In this document: positions 35,165 through 41,925 of the stretch, piece after piece | How the letters are laid out: each line of letters starts with the position of its first letter | How positions within the stretch are numbered: the stretch's first letter is position 1 | NCBI GenBank assembly: GCA_903839875.1 | Contig: CAIMDZ010000194.1 | Span: 1 to 64,000 of the forward strand | Length of the DNA: 64,000 nucleotides | Direction: 5' to 3' | DNA from: an uncultured Bacteroidota bacterium | GTDB taxonomy: Bacteria > Bacteroidota > Bacteroidia > Chitinophagales > Chitinophagaceae | Notes under the pieces: model-generated | Told to the model about the DNA's origin: nothing | What the model saw: only the letters and a program-made list of their open reading frames with translations | Databases searched by the model: none | Program-made: the position numbers and the translations under genes

Positions 35165-35315
35165 TTGTCACCAATTTTGCAAATATAGTGACATTTAACA
35201 ATTAAAATGTCACCTTTTTTTTAAAAACAGTGACATTTCTTCACACCTGGATACGAAACACGAATGATTGAAGAAGATTGCTTTTGTTGTGTAAACAAAA
35301 TAAAGCCAGGTAATC

Positions 35316-35795
35316 CTAGTTGTTCACAACATTCATTGGCTTCGTCAGCCCGCTTCGCCTATCCGTTAGGAAAGGCTTAACTACGTAGCGCTTGGCGCTC
35401 CCAGCAATAATAATCATAATCGCCTCCGGACAATTGTAACTATGGCTATTCGCAATTTCATGCATTTGAGTAAGGTCTTGTGAACTCGGAGTCGCCGTAC
35501 CCAATGGGTGAAAGTGCCACTCACCCAAGTAGTAATGTTTCTCCTTCCATGCCTTGTTTAAAAGCAACTTTAACCCCTTAATGCCTCGTTTAAACCAGTA
35601 CCTTCCGCTCCGGGAATCTTCGGGCGGATCACTCACTTCGCAGACAACCGCCCGGAGATTGTCTGCCGTGTAGTAACCAATTAAAACGCCTCCGGTTTCA
35701 TTAATGCCAGAGGCTGCAATGTTTTTAACCATTACAGCGATATGCTCATCCGCGATACTCAATCCTAAAATTCCGTTTTCAACCACAAAGTCCAT
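35316..35795 (-). CDS. cap3: CBASS Cap3-like JAB/MPN isopeptidase
   Basis: ETGGVLIGYY; GEWHFHPLGTATPSSQDL (ExnHxHPx8-SxxD JAMM motif). Confidence 0.92.
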   Translation of the reverse strand: MDFVVENGILGLSIADEHIAVMVKNIAASGINETGGVLIGYYTADNLRAVVCEVSDPPEDSRSGRYWFKRGIKGLKLLLNKAWKEKHYYLGEWHFHPLGTATPSSQDLTQMHEIANSHSYNCPEAIMIIIAGSAKRYVVKPFLTDRRSGLTKPMNVVNN

Positions 35796-35802
35796 CTTCG
35801 TT

Positions 35803-37578
35803 TTATTGAGTTTTTACTATTTGCAATCCTCCATCTTCTTTCCGTTCGATAACGGCGAGGCAATGTTCATCCTGTCTTTGAAGAAAACCCTCGATTTGCC
35901 GGATAGAGGGAGACAATACCCCGAGGAGATCATCGAGCCTTGCCGGAAATACCGGATGCCAACAGCCTATTCCCTCCAAAGGAAAGACTGGATTTGGTTT
36001 TTCGTCTTTTTGTTTTTGATGCCAGGGCTTCATTAAAGCATCGAAGTTATCCATGATTTCAAATGTAGCAGTTCTGACCATGTAACAATATAGTCGTTTC
36101 GCCTCAAGGCTTGTTGATAAGGATACGACAATCTTGTTTTTGTTTTTCAATTCCCGGCCTAAAAGCATTAACACCATGTTGTTTGCCGTAGCGTCAATAA
36201 TAAGATCAAAAGCGTCAAAAAAAGACGGCTCTTTTTGAAAACACTCTTCAAGGGTTCCAACTTTAAAAGACACGTTAACGAACGGAAAAATTGAATTAAG
36301 CCTTTGCGCAAGCTCTGGTGCTTTTAGGAAGGGCAGGGAAGTCATATCCAAAGTGTGGCGTGAGAAATTGCCAACACTCAAAGTATCTCCGTCAACTATC
36401 GTAATTTTCTCACAACCCAGACGAACTAAAAGTTCCGCAAGCGATGAGCCGAGAGCGCCTGCTCCGACCAGCAGGATATTCATCGCCTCAATTGGCCCGG
36501 TTAGATTTCCCCGAGACGTAATCTGATCTTTAGCCCAGTTTTCTGTTTGAAGCCATTTTATACTGGCACTATCCCGAAACATCACGTTTGTTTGAAATTT
36601 ACGACGCTCTATATTATCGGTTCTGAAACCAGCCTTAACAAGTGGCACGTCTAGTTGTGCTGCAAACCAATGCATGCGGCAGCTTGCTTCCCCAAACCGT
36701 TCAGATACAGGAAACCCAAGAGCAAGAAGTGTTGCTTTGCCCATCATCTTTTTTTCCGCAAGCTGTTTAACAAGTAATGACCGGAGGTCTAATCCCATTG
36801 CAGAGCAAACGTCAAATAATTCCCGCCATGTTTGAGGTATCTGCCAGGGTGCCTTAACAGGAATTCCGGGAAGACGTACCCACAAACCTACACCCTCACT
36901 CCCCTTTGAATTATGGATTGCACTTCCCCATTCAGTTTTAACGACTGGTTCGTGCACTGACTTAAATTCAAGAACTGCTGCAATCTCGCGATTGAAATCA
37001 GGTCGACGCCAATGAACCAGCCCATCTTGTACCGGACTATTTTCCCATATCTGATAAGCGGCCTTCGTTTCATTAGAAACCCAAACCGTCGAAACCCGTG
37101 TTGGGAAAGGTGGCAGTTCAAAAGGATCGCCTTCTGCGACTAGTCGATTTTCCGCAGCGGCTGTTATCCACGATTGCGCACGCTTGATTGTCCAATGCAT
37201 ACGGGTTCCGGCATCGAAAGGCTCCGAATTAAAGAAAGCCTTGCCCCATATACCAAGGCTCGTCTTTACACAAATGTTCCCTGTGCGCCACGGTTTATTG
37301 CTTTCCTCGTTAAAGGTCATGTGGGGGAAAGTAACCTTTATGCCCTGTTCGGCATCAGGATATATTTCCAGCTCACCAAAGGGGTACTGGTGAGAAACCA
37401 AACACCACCAGGTGGTTGCAACAGGCACCCAGTCCGTTGCCGCATAGTCGCCTATGAGCCGAAACTTGAATACCCATTTCTCCGCCTTTTGGTTCCACGA
37501 AAGATCCTCCAACAATTCATATCCGACGATGCCTTCCAGCCTTCTTCGCCCCAATAGCAATTCCTCACTTGGCTCCAT
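35803..37578 (-). CDS. cap2: CBASS Cap2-like E2-E1 fusion (ubiquitin-transferase-like)
   Basis: E2-like N-terminus with TGNICVKTSLG candidate Cys; ThiF/E1 MNILLVGAGALGSSLAELLVRLGCEKITIVDGDTLSVGNFSRH; GCWHPVFPA near C-terminus. Confidence 0.93.
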   Translation of the reverse strand: MEPSEELLLGRRRLEGIVGYELLEDLSWNQKAEKWVFKFRLIGDYAATDWVPVATTWWCLVSHQYPFGELEIYPDAEQGIKVTFPHMTFNEESNKPWRTGNICVKTSLGIWGKAFFNSEPFDAGTRMHWTIKRAQSWITAAAENRLVAEGDPFELPPFPTRVSTVWVSNETKAAYQIWENSPVQDGLVHWRRPDFNREIAAVLEFKSVHEPVVKTEWGSAIHNSKGSEGVGLWVRLPGIPVKAPWQIPQTWRELFDVCSAMGLDLRSLLVKQLAEKKMMGKATLLALGFPVSERFGEASCRMHWFAAQLDVPLVKAGFRTDNIERRKFQTNVMFRDSASIKWLQTENWAKDQITSRGNLTGPIEAMNILLVGAGALGSSLAELLVRLGCEKITIVDGDTLSVGNFSRHTLDMTSLPFLKAPELAQRLNSIFPFVNVSFKVGTLEECFQKEPSFFDAFDLIIDATANNMVLMLLGRELKNKNKIVVSLSTSLEAKRLYCYMVRTATFEIMDNFDALMKPWHQKQKDEKPNPVFPLEGIGCWHPVFPARLDDLLGVLSPSIRQIEGFLQRQDEHCLAVIERKEDGGLQIVKTQ

Positions 37579-37580
37579 GC

Positions 37581-38741
37581 TTAGGCAAATCGTTCTTGTT
37601 TTGGTTCAGAAATATTTGTTCGTGGTGTAAAGCCCGCCAGTGTCGGCGCATTGTTGCTTCCGCGCGTATCGGTATCGTCATCATCCGGCGCAAGTGGGAA
37701 CTTGTCGCCAAATATCTGCCGCCACTTTTCTGTCTGTTTTTTTAGTGAGGTCTCGTCATAAGCTTCGCGGGCGATCTTCGCGTAGGACTCCGCATAATCA
37801 TAAAATTTCTTGAAGTCATCGAAAGTTATCCGGTGCCATACGTTATGTTCCGGTACACCGCGATCTGGGAAGATCGGCACCGTGCCGCTTCGCCTATGCA
37901 CAGCATAGTTCGCAACAAAGGCTTCAAATGTTTCAACGACACCTTCGGCGACACTTGTGATTTTATCCGGGCAGCAATCGCCAATCATGTGTTCTACCGG
38001 ATAGCCTTTGGGATATTTGAGGTCCGTTAATTTCAGCGTCCGCCACCATTTGAATGCCTTGACGACATTGACATAGTGGCCGTTCGTATTCTTGTTCTTT
38101 TCCCGTGTCCACCTGATTTGTTCCAGTGGATGTGTTGTCTCCCAAATACCGGCGTCACGATCAGGAATCCAGAGCGGCTCGCCTTTCCATTCAGGTTCTG
38201 CCCTTTGCGCAGCGCTCAAGACAGAGTTGCCTTTTAGGAGATCAGGTTCAGTCCACCCCTTGGATAATCGCCAATCATAGTAAGGCGTCTGAAGATCTTC
38301 GAGGATCAGGTTTGTTGTGACGCTCGCAGAACGCAGCATCTTCTGGTCAATCTCCGAAGGTGCAGAGGTAACAACAATATCCAGATCAACATACGAAAGA
38401 GAAATGCCGATAGACCGCCCTTGTCTCTCCCATTTTCCTTTATAGTGTTTATCCGCAAATGGCTCAAACATTTCCAGAGCCTTCTTCGGCGTGACTTTCG
38501 CCCGGTCAAGGTTCGTCACGACGATGATATCGACGTCGGCGCGCTTTTCACCCAAGGGGCGAATAGCCGTCGATCTTCTGTAACTTCCTTGCAGGAAGGT
38601 GGTAACGATGGTGTCCTTCAAATCTTCGTCACCCATAAGTCTTTCTCTTAGCGTTGTATGTCCCCTCCGGGACTCGTCTTTTTGTGTTGCAGTCATTCGA
38701 ATGACCGAAAGAAAATCAGTAAAGTAAGTATTTATTCCCAC
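37581..38741 (-). CDS. CBASS CD-NTase (cyclic oligonucleotide synthase; probably clade D-like)
   Basis: QGSYRRSTAIRPLGEKRADVDIIVV (GS...DhD) and third carboxylate VDLDIVV; located next to Cap2/Cap3. Confidence 0.92.
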   Translation of the reverse strand: MGINTYFTDFLSVIRMTATQKDESRRGHTTLRERLMGDEDLKDTIVTTFLQGSYRRSTAIRPLGEKRADVDIIVVTNLDRAKVTPKKALEMFEPFADKHYKGKWERQGRSIGISLSYVDLDIVVTSAPSEIDQKMLRSASVTTNLILEDLQTPYYDWRLSKGWTEPDLLKGNSVLSAAQRAEPEWKGEPLWIPDRDAGIWETTHPLEQIRWTREKNKNTNGHYVNVVKAFKWWRTLKLTDLKYPKGYPVEHMIGDCCPDKITSVAEGVVETFEAFVANYAVHRRSGTVPIFPDRGVPEHNVWHRITFDDFKKFYDYAESYAKIAREAYDETSLKKQTEKWRQIFGDKFPLAPDDDDTDTRGSNNAPTLAGFTPRTNISEPKQERFA

Positions 38742-38744
38742 GTG

Positions 38745-40298
38745 TTATTTGTTTAAAAAAGGTAAAGAAATTGAAGGGACATAAGTGCCCGTTCTTAAGT
38801 TGTCAAAGTCAAATTCGTATAAGGTAATCCTGCCAAGCTGCTTGCCATACCGGCCCAGAAAAAAGGAAAAGGCATTCGGAGCGGCCAGGAATAAATGAAC
38901 ACTTCCCATTCGTTCACCAGCTTTTCTATTTGCACGAAATTCAGTCAAAAGTTCTTCTATAGCAGCGACAATATGATTACCGTCACGGATAGAAGCGCCG
39001 GAGGGGCCGGGAAGGATGGTCGCGCTCAAAATTCGGCTCACTTTCGGTAAGCTCTCCAAAACATACTCCTTTACACGCGGAAATATGTCATAGGTGACGC
39101 CGATGCACAAAACGACATCATTGCTGCTGACATTGATAGTTTCCTCGCTCCACTTCCAAAGTGGTGCTGCGTTTTCGCCCGGAGCGGGTTTTCCATTTGG
39201 CTCCAATAATATTCTGCCTCCGTTCCGAACCTTCTGAATGACACCAACCTCGGCCCCGGTTTTTGCATCAAGGAAATACCCCATTGCAAAGGCAGCGGAT
39301 AAGTGGGTGTCAAGATGGATAACCAAAGGCTTGCCTTCTGCCAGCGCCTTATCTGAAAGACGTTGTAGCGCGGGTACAATATCACTTTGCCAAAGCTCGT
39401 CGGCAAGTACATAACGGTTATCAAAATGATGAAGCAGGCAAAGATATTCGTCGGTTTCAAATTCTATTGTGTCGGTTCCTCTGCTGAAGGTGCGCACGCC
39501 GATGCGATAGACATTCCGCACATCCTGTGTCGTGGTCGTGACCCATAAATTTTCTTGTTTAAGAATTTCTTTAAGTTCCTCACGGCCCAGCAGATTGCGC
39601 TTTTCCTGATGCAGGCGCTTTATCAGGTCTGGATAGGGGCTGGTTCTTTTGTCGCTTTGCAGCGTTTGAAGGCCCACGCCTGCAAGTGCGAAATTCATAT
39701 CTTCATCTATGCCCTCGCCGGAGCTCGCACTATGCATGATCCGTAGTTGCCTAACAATAAGAAGCAGATCATCGTCAGACCCGAGCCCAAGATGTTCCCG
39801 CCATTTTTTACGGATTTTGCCGTGCTTTGAATCATCCGACTTGCCGTCAAACAATTGACTGAGTCGGATTGCACCGTTATTGTCAAGCAAGGTTTTCAAC
39901 GTATCGTTCCGGTCCAATCCCCAGGTATTCACGATATGATACACAGCAGTGGCATATTCACTCGGCGATTTTTGATAGTTTCGTTGCAGCTTCTGCAACA
40001 GAGATTCAGATGTCGCACCGATAAAAGCAGGGTCAATCAGCGCATCACAGCTAAACGCACTGCTATGATTGACATGAAACTTTACTTGAAAATATTCGCA
40101 CTTAACAGTGTAGCCATATTCGGAGAGTTTCCCCGGATCGTAAAAGACAGCAACGTCATCAAAGCCAGGCGTATCTGAAATTTCCCAAGCAACTTGCTTC
40201 ACATTGCTATTCGGTAGGTAAAGCGTGCAGGCTTTCCGCCAGAAAAACTTCGCCTGAAATTCAAATCCTCCTTGTATTGCAAGTACTGCGTCCGCCAT
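38745..40298 (-). CDS. CBASS effector: SAVED-domain protein with N-terminal nuclease-like domain (Cap4-like)
   Basis: SAVED C-terminus (IHLDTHLSAAFAMGYFLD...; SVHLFLAAPNAFSFFLGRYGKQLGRITLYEFDFDN); N-terminus GFEFQAKFFW...GFDDVAVFYD...CEYFQVKFH resembles a D...QxK endonuclease core. Confidence 0.85.
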   Translation of the reverse strand: MADAVLAIQGGFEFQAKFFWRKACTLYLPNSNVKQVAWEISDTPGFDDVAVFYDPGKLSEYGYTVKCEYFQVKFHVNHSSAFSCDALIDPAFIGATSESLLQKLQRNYQKSPSEYATAVYHIVNTWGLDRNDTLKTLLDNNGAIRLSQLFDGKSDDSKHGKIRKKWREHLGLGSDDDLLLIVRQLRIMHSASSGEGIDEDMNFALAGVGLQTLQSDKRTSPYPDLIKRLHQEKRNLLGREELKEILKQENLWVTTTTQDVRNVYRIGVRTFSRGTDTIEFETDEYLCLLHHFDNRYVLADELWQSDIVPALQRLSDKALAEGKPLVIHLDTHLSAAFAMGYFLDAKTGAEVGVIQKVRNGGRILLEPNGKPAPGENAAPLWKWSEETINVSSNDVVLCIGVTYDIFPRVKEYVLESLPKVSRILSATILPGPSGASIRDGNHIVAAIEELLTEFRANRKAGERMGSVHLFLAAPNAFSFFLGRYGKQLGRITLYEFDFDNLRTGTYVPSISLPFLNK

Positions 40299-40400
40299 TT
40301 TTATTAAGTATTATTTTGTTCATAGAAAATTTATTTACGAATTTCTTCATTGAGGATAGAGGATAGAGCTACGATTGCAGCGCTATCCCTTACCACCCTT

Positions 40401-40598
40401 TTATTTCTTCCCGTCTTTAAGTGCGCGCCTTACGCCATCAAGCGAGTCTGTATCGAACTTGTCTTTCAAAGTTCCCAAGTGTGTATTCCCGTTAACCCCT
40501 TCAAATTCGGGATACTGCTCTTTAAGGTTCTGTACTTTTGTATCTGACCTTTTGCGTCGGTATTCTCCGTCGTTGTTTCGTGAACGTTCGTTGCTCAT
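40401..40598 (-). CDS. Small hypothetical protein upstream of CBASS operon
   Basis: 65 aa MSNERSRNNDGEYRRKRSDTKVQNLKEQYPEFEGVNGNTHLGTLKDKFDTDSLDGVRRALKDGKK; same strand as CBASS. Confidence 0.6.
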   Translation of the reverse strand: MSNERSRNNDGEYRRKRSDTKVQNLKEQYPEFEGVNGNTHLGTLKDKFDTDSLDGVRRALKDGKK

Positions 40599-40622
40599 GA
40601 TAAAGTTGTTTTTTAATGGTTA

Positions 40623-40901
40623 TTAATTGAAGTCTTTTACTCTGCCATTCTCGTAAGTAAAGGTTAAAGCGATGTACTTTTCGAGTGTGGCGCTTTTCTT
40701 TTTACAAACGTCCTGAAGGGCTGTTGTGGCCTGCTCTGGCGTTGCATTTTCTTTTACCAAAGTTGTATTCGGCAGTTTCACATTGCCGCCAGAATTTATC
40801 GGAACATGGTCTGAATAGCCAAGATCCTTCATTGCGTTCTTTACTTCAGTATGGATTGTGCTCGTCGTACGTTCGACGTCATAGGTAATTATTACCGGCA
40901 T
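40623..40901 (-). CDS. Small protein, possible Cas2/SinR-like ferredoxin fold
   Basis: MPVIITYDVERTTSTIHTEVKNAMKDLGYSD...LPNTTLVKENATPEQATTALQDVCKKKSATLEKYIALTF; beta-YD-helix-LG-beta-helix order. ORF opens at 40928. Confidence 0.55.
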   Translation of the reverse strand: MPVIITYDVERTTSTIHTEVKNAMKDLGYSDHVPINSGGNVKLPNTTLVKENATPEQATTALQDVCKKKSATLEKYIALTFTYENGRVKDFN

Positions 40902-41756
40902 ATTATTTGTATTAAGTAATCTGTTCACTGGGGTGCTTCCTATCGTAGCAGAACAGAACTCGCCGGGGAGAGAATTGAAAAAATGTTTTAGAAAGCTATT
41001 GTTTTATCCAATCTTTGTTTACTTTCGTCGCGCAATTAGTCATTTTCCAATCTGTTAAGAGGTGAACGGCCTCCGAAGTAGCTTTCCCAGTTGCTAGGTG
41101 ATCTTCTTTGTATTTCGTTTTCGAGTATTTTTTATTAAATAAAGGCTGCAATTATTATGCCATACTGATATTTTCTGAAAAAATGTCACGCATAAGTAAT
41201 TTATTTTTGAAACCGATACACCCATTAACAATCGCTTAAATAAGAAAAGGGCAAATTTGACAGACTGTCTGACAGGCGAAGGCATTTATGTCGCACACTT
41301 ATGCCGTTTTAGTTAGAAAACCATTATGCTTTTGGCATGTAAAGCTACCTTCCATTATCGTGTCGTCAGATATTTTACAGGAATCTATTTTGTTCTTATT
41401 GAAGGTTATCTTATAAATGTGCATAGCATAAAAGTGCTTGGTTTCCACCTTGAATCTGCAAATCTACTAATAGAGCAGGCACGTAATTAAATATCCATAT
41501 TCGCCTTTATCCGTTCAAGTTTTGTAAGTTTATTTATACGGTTGCAAAGGTACTATGAGTACCTGAGTTCGATCTATTTTAAACCGGGTTGTGTACCTCC
41601 GTCTTGCGATATAAATTCCTCAATAGCCTTCAAATCTTCAATAAAATAGTTCGAAAGTTGTATCTTTGGGCGCACAGAAAATGAGAGCGAAGTACAAAGG
41701 GCGGAGAGCGCTTGGAGGCTTCGCTCTTTTATTGCGTTTCATTTCCCATTGTTTTT

Positions 41757-41820
41757 GACGTACTACTTTGAGGTTGTAGGGCGCAAGCGTTCTGATCCAT
41801 TTTGCCCCGCAGAAATGTAA
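41757..41820 (+). repeat. Decayed partial copy of tRNA-Leu(GAG): candidate att site / right end of integrated element
   Basis: gacgtactactttgaggttgtagggcgc...gttctgatccattttgccccgcaga vs tRNA gacgcactactttgaggtggtagcgcc...gttcgaatctcttttgccgcaca. Confidence 0.65.
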
Positions 41821-41844
41821 AACCCGCGACAAGCGCGGGTTGTG
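41818..41844. terminator. Hairpin aaacccgcgacaagcgcgggttgtg
   Basis: AACCCGCG/CGCGGGTT stem; weak T content after. Confidence 0.5.
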
Positions 41845-41925
41845 TCGTTCGAAAAGTTCCTTTTACTTACTCTAATTGAAAAAAAACTCAGCGAGAAAGC
41901 CATTTGAAGTATTTTTAAAGAAAAA

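Follow-up and report, generated by a model that had tools for sequence, protein, structure and literature searches.

A defence-associated small basic protein and a putative Cas2/VapD-like protein encoded ahead of a type II CBASS operon in a Bacteroidota genome

The CBASS operon and its two leading ORFs

In the 64,000-nucleotide stretch of Bacteroidota DNA analysed here (hereafter, the window), two small ORFs on the minus strand precede an operon that, judged by its gene content, is a complete, bona fide type II CBASS. The operon, also on the minus strand, begins with the gene for a Cap4-like SAVED-PDDEXK nuclease, the predicted effector (38745..40298; PADLOC PDLC00752 (SAVED3/PDDEXK), E=1.5e-180; Pfam SAVED, E=1.2e-25). 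The effector gene is followed by those for a CD-NTase of the SMODS type (37581..38741; PADLOC Cyclase, E=3.2e-160), Cap2, an E1-E2 protein (35803..37578; PADLOC E1-E2, E=2.3e-202), and Cap3, a JAB isopeptidase (35316..35795; PADLOC JAB, E=1.8e-50), and then by AbiEi/AbiEii. The operon resembles other type II CBASS with a Cap4-like effector in having all four core genes, in order, but differs from them in the two extra leading ORFs. Relatives of the effector (32-34% identity) were found at eight loci on plasmids, all of which lack both ORFs. A search for the effector in 299 genomes of the same order recovered only the window's own copy.

The distal of the two leading ORFs, ORF-B (40623..40901, minus strand), encodes a protein of 92 aa with a predicted Cas2/VapD-like ferredoxin fold. 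We place its start at the ATG at 40901; an alternative in-frame GTG upstream, at 40928, would yield 101 aa. ORF-A (40401..40598, minus strand) starts with ATG and encodes a basic protein of 65 aa (pI 9.4). ORF-B and ORF-A are separated by 24 bp, and ORF-A and the start of the CBASS effector gene (40298) by 102 bp, so that the two same-strand ORFs, with gaps of 24 and about 100 bp, are both present as the first-pass annotation of this DNA had described them. Searches of Pfam, NCBIfam, PADLOC and PHROGs gave no usable match for either protein. Comparison nevertheless shows that both ORFs are genuine genes and not frames open by chance: relatives of ORF-A are recognizable at the protein level at 47 other loci, and ORF-B has three relatives, one detected with the single sequence (E=6e-9) and two with a profile (E=3e-8 and 6e-6).

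The 102-nt gap contains a strong RNA stem-loop (40353..40399, minus strand) that lies directly after ORF-A and before the effector gene. Its folding energy is -27.3 kcal/mol (z=-5.2), and none of 200 shuffled sequences was as stable; it matches no Rfam family and occurs only once in the genome, and no U-tract terminator was called at this site. The stem-loop may stop, slow or protect the transcript, so that co-transcription of the leading ORFs with the effector gene is putative. Sigma-70-like promoters and terminators within 40200-41900 were not clearly above those in shuffled sequences. Upstream of ORF-B there is a sigma-54-like site (41163, minus strand), which was set aside because the window contains three other matches that are just as good. 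Farther along the operon, between Cap3 and AbiEi (35165-35315), we noticed by eye a TATATTTG (-7-like) element amid inverted TGACATTT/AAATGTCA repeats, an arrangement that suggests an autoregulated promoter of its own for AbiE.

The ORF-A family and its genomic partners

Catalogues of defence systems rest on large effectors, and annotation misses families of genes of 60-75 aa. The ORF-A family is unnamed and undescribed and, by its distribution, sparse and pan-bacterial. Single-sequence and profile searches placed relatives at 48 loci after removal of duplicates, the window included. The family was found in six of 249 genomes of the order and three of 397 genomes of the phylum (the window's own counted in each), at 41 loci in a GTDB species collection, on a Bradyrhizobium conjugative plasmid and in a single viral contig, with none in phage records. 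Its hosts belong to Bacteroidota, Patescibacteria, Acidobacteriota, Verrucomicrobiota and other phyla.

The family consensus (alignment A5) reads DAPGMKGxRSRNxDGxLRxKRxDTHxGTIEKQYGRDFGVRSDMHLGTxL...SLNDLI, and Arg17, Tyr29 and Ser52 (window numbering) are invariant across 40 rows. The window's protein departs from the family at the near-invariant positions 24, 26, 36 and 45 and belongs to a deep, divergent subclade together with L027, L024 and L045 (support 100/100). The AF2 model built on the 40-row alignment consists of disordered basic residues (1-20) followed by three short helices (pLDDT 86-88); it has no fold match in the PDB, and no PDB chain matched the sequence below E=0.38. The basic character is shared by the family, with a median pI of 9.4. 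More than half of the family genes (28 of 48) have a neighbour on the same strand at a distance of 50 bp or less, and in 20 of these cases there is one directly upstream, so that ORF-A is often not the first gene.

The neighbours of the ORF-A relatives encode components of type I, III and IIG restriction, GmrSD, TIR/Thoeris, HEPN-like and Fic proteins, two further CBASS and a Pycsar cyclase. Restriction is represented by HsdM (L030), MmeI (L029) and type III Res (L028), to which BLAST clusters of the neighbours add three more HsdM loci and further HsdS loci. GmrSD is encoded at L032 and L058. A TIR/ThsB protein (L070) and a TIR-like protein (L055) account for the TIR group, and further neighbours are Fic (L063), a PLD nuclease (L050) and DUF3892 (L014, L027). 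The two CBASS loci contain, respectively, an HNH-SAVED protein with a cyclase (L040) and a cyclase (L039), and both encode an E2 like the one in PDB 8hsb (E=1.9e-19 and 2.3e-16). At L059, the ORF-A relative comes third, after a truncated Pycsar cytidylate cyclase (2-1562; 8jsf, E=4.8e-51) and a SEC-C protein that weakly matches E2 (UBC).

At seven loci, a protein of 171-208 aa starts at most 16 bp downstream of the ORF-A relative or overlaps it, forming a two-gene module found mostly in Patescibacteria (L033:4618-5133, L037:4458-5000, L061:4212-4754, L065:8176-8706, L016, L053 and L066). This partner has no Pfam match; its R-x6-H pattern, like that of HEPN RNases, suggests that it is a HEPN protein. 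The ORF-A family could serve as a sequence handle for new defence loci, of which this HEPN-like module is an example. We also observed, at two Bacteroidota loci (L035:8191-8400 and L043:8193-8402), a Cys-rich protein of 69 aa, without a Pfam match, encoded after the ORF-A relative, with an S24/HTH regulator before it.

The neighbours of ORF-A are enriched for defence genes. When the 90 nearest neighbouring proteins with 100 aa or more are searched at E<=1e-8, they match 325 PADLOC models, compared to 28 for 90 random Bacteroidota genes, a control that draws on four genomes of this phylum only, whereas the ORF-A loci span many phyla; one helicase contributes 23 of the 28. Counted per protein, at least 16 of the 90 neighbours and at most six of the 90 random genes have a defence match (Fisher p=0.02); 16 is a lower bound from tallies and individual scans and six an upper one, and operons that are related do not count as independent cases. 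At these loci, 56 distal genes match 73 PADLOC models, and because these genes are also rich in defence functions, part of the linkage signal reflects residence in defence islands.

The phylogeny of the family, which is based on few alignment columns, ties particular partners to particular branches. All seven members with a HEPN-like partner fall into a single clade (98/94), the type I restriction-modification members L030, L034 and L023 into another (98/81), and two GmrSD-associated members group together (99/97). The retention of one partner type within subclades, with switches between them, suggests a working relation rather than mere co-residence. The three CBASS members (window, L039 and L040) do not group, which suggests that ORF-A was recruited to CBASS independently. 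Since partners switch between subclades, ORF-A is, by its genomic contexts, a mobile, general defence-associated accessory protein rather than a CBASS-specific one. The earlier proposal that the leading ORFs are CBASS accessory genes thus survives in a weak sense, in that ORF-A occurs in two further CBASS loci and one Pycsar locus, and not in the sense of specificity, most of the named neighbours being non-CBASS defence genes. Linkage with CD-NTase genes did not recur above that with other systems: only two of the 47 other ORF-A loci, and none of the three loci with ORF-B relatives, are CBASS.

ORF-B relatives and predicted fold

ORF-B is rare. Among 249 genomes of the order, there was one clear relative (G150, 41% identity), and a profile of these two rows led to two further relatives in the class; searches of genome contigs, viral contigs, plasmids and phages found none. 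The AF2 single-sequence model (pLDDT 68, pTM 0.55) has the order E-H-E-H-E-E. When this model was compared to the PDB with Foldseek, VapD came first (6zi1, E=0.011, prob 1.00), followed by Cas2 structures such as that of S. pyogenes (4qr0); Sulfolobus SSO8090 (3exc, TM 0.55/0.64) was likewise among the best matches, and GhoS was listed too. The top matches have TM scores of about 0.5 and E-values of about 0.01, and since none falls below 0.001 and the model reaches a pLDDT of only 68, we treat the likeness to VapD and Cas2, at low confidence, as a fold-level resemblance from a low-resolution match. At that resolution, the Cas2/SinR/VapD-like fold suggested by the first-pass annotation is supported. 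By sequence profile, ORF-B matched neither Cas2 nor VapD nor another named family in Pfam, NCBIfam or PADLOC, and a profile search of the PDB returned only unrelated chains (E>=0.33).

A non-CRISPR nuclease of the Cas2/VapD type, BPSL1038, contains D and SST elements (PMC10491678). ORF-B is similar to the Cas2/VapD nucleases, this one included, in size, in the predicted order of secondary structure elements and in its best fold matches. The protein of the window also has an Asp at the end of strand 1 (YD) and a Ser/Asn-Thr-Thr turn that can be likened to the SST turn in BPSL1038; the [NS]-T-T turn is present in ORF-B and two of its relatives. ORF-B differs from these nucleases in that the insert from Asp8 to the NTT turn is longer, in that no PDB chain is detectably similar to it in sequence and in that Asp8 is not invariant, being Asp in the window, L011 and L025 but Asn in L026. 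Unlike the Cas2 of CRISPR adaptation, ORF-B is not linked to cas1, which was not found among the ORFs around it in the window. ORF-B is possibly a metal-dependent nuclease. The relative in L025 (7605-7871), in which we recognized a Cas2-like motif by eye, is some 4 kb away from a type II CRISPR-Cas locus (cas2/cas1/cas9-like) that has a cas2-like gene of its own, and adjoins two genes of repeated zinc-finger-like units (also read by eye).

Accessory protein, repressor, toxin-antitoxin pair or passengers

The explanation that we favour, tentatively and at somewhat less than an even chance, is that ORF-A is a small basic anti-phage accessory protein that spread horizontally and was recruited to the front of this type II CBASS, with ORF-B as a separate matter. 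Under this model, the disordered Arg/Lys-rich N-terminus of ORF-A would touch nucleic acid, the three-helix C-terminal part would dock on the adjacent effector or modifying enzyme, and this docking would restrain or place the partner until infection. ORF-B would be a separate, rarely found, stand-alone Cas2/VapD-like protein that merely shares the leader of this operon. With its basic tail and helical mini-domain, ORF-A probably acts on the adjacent effector, by docking on it or restraining it, or else as a regulator of its operon. A conserved small family that recurs next to unrelated immune effectors would suggest that these are restrained, placed or regulated in a common way. The broadest form of this idea, in which ORF-A is the founder of a general immunity adaptor serving restriction, TIR, HEPN, CBASS and Pycsar systems in many phyla, we consider unlikely. 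Several observations speak against the favoured explanation itself, among them the defence-rich distal genes of the ORF-A loci. For 20 of the 48 family genes, no gene on the same strand lies within 50 bp, and a single docking surface is hard to square with partners as biochemically unrelated as methylases, TIR and HEPN proteins and a SAVED nuclease; the model is further weakened because the window's ORF-A is divergent and the relatives of the effector elsewhere come without ORF-A.

The alternatives differ in whether they grant the two ORFs a joint role, a regulatory role or no role in CBASS. The toxin-antitoxin-like pair suggested earlier, here taken as a VapD-like RNase (ORF-B) with ORF-A as the basic antitoxin, acting independently of CBASS, would account for the 24-bp spacing, for VapD toxin as the best fold match of ORF-B and for Asp8 following strand 1 as in Cas2 and VapD. 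However, ORF-A and ORF-B never co-occur outside the window (ORF-B is at none of the 47 other ORF-A loci, and ORF-A at none of the three ORF-B loci), and the aspartate is replaced in one of the relatives, so that we regard such a pair as quite improbable. A role for ORF-A as a small transcriptional repressor leading the operon, in the manner of RptR or of CapH/CapP and CapK/CapS, is doubtful as well, even with published precedents (RptR, PMC12255303; CapK/CapS, PMC13373217). RptR is a 79-aa repressor encoded before type I R-M systems (PMC12255303) and, like ORF-A, which is small, basic, helical and near the operon head in the window, it is small and helical and recurs at restriction operons, ORF-A being found at other defence operons, too. 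At L070, ORF-A leads a TIR operon divergent from HTH and ImmA/IrrE genes, and S24/LexA-like or M78 regulators lie near several other relatives. Unlike RptR, however, which occurs mainly in Gammaproteobacteria (PMC12255303), ORF-A is spread over many phyla and matches no PDB chain in sequence or fold, and its relatives are often inside operons, with about 20 of them directly downstream of a same-strand gene and hence not at a promoter. Because ORF-A genes are so often not first, a protein partner fits better than a promoter-bound autorepressor. ORF-A and ORF-B share with CapH/CapP, CapW and CapK/CapS (PMC13373217) a position upstream of CBASS and other immune operons but contain no HTH, WYL, peptidase, kinase or STAS domain.

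Finally, both ORFs might be passengers of a defence island, under selection of their own or none and without a functional tie to CBASS. The absence of CBASS beside the ORF-B relatives, the occurrence of Cap4 relatives without either ORF, the gap with its strong stem-loop that parts the two ORFs from the effector, and the defence-rich distal genes at ORF-A loci all speak for this possibility. Nevertheless, many ORF-A relatives lie only 3-23 bp from a gene on the same strand and keep to one partner inside subclades such as the HEPN clade, which argues for more than shared residence, and on balance we find the passenger explanation unlikely, ahead of the repressor and the toxin-antitoxin pair.

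At four ORF-A loci, a nucleotide cyclase occurs together with an E2-like protein, namely the window (Cap2), L039 and L040 (E2) and L059 (E2-like, weakly supported). We considered and dropped the idea that ORF-A is tied to E1/E2 conjugation: four or five loci fit it, which does not exceed the CBASS-like share to be expected among defence loci, a share that is estimated rather than computed. The E2-like gene beside the Pycsar cyclase of L059 may deserve a look in its own right.
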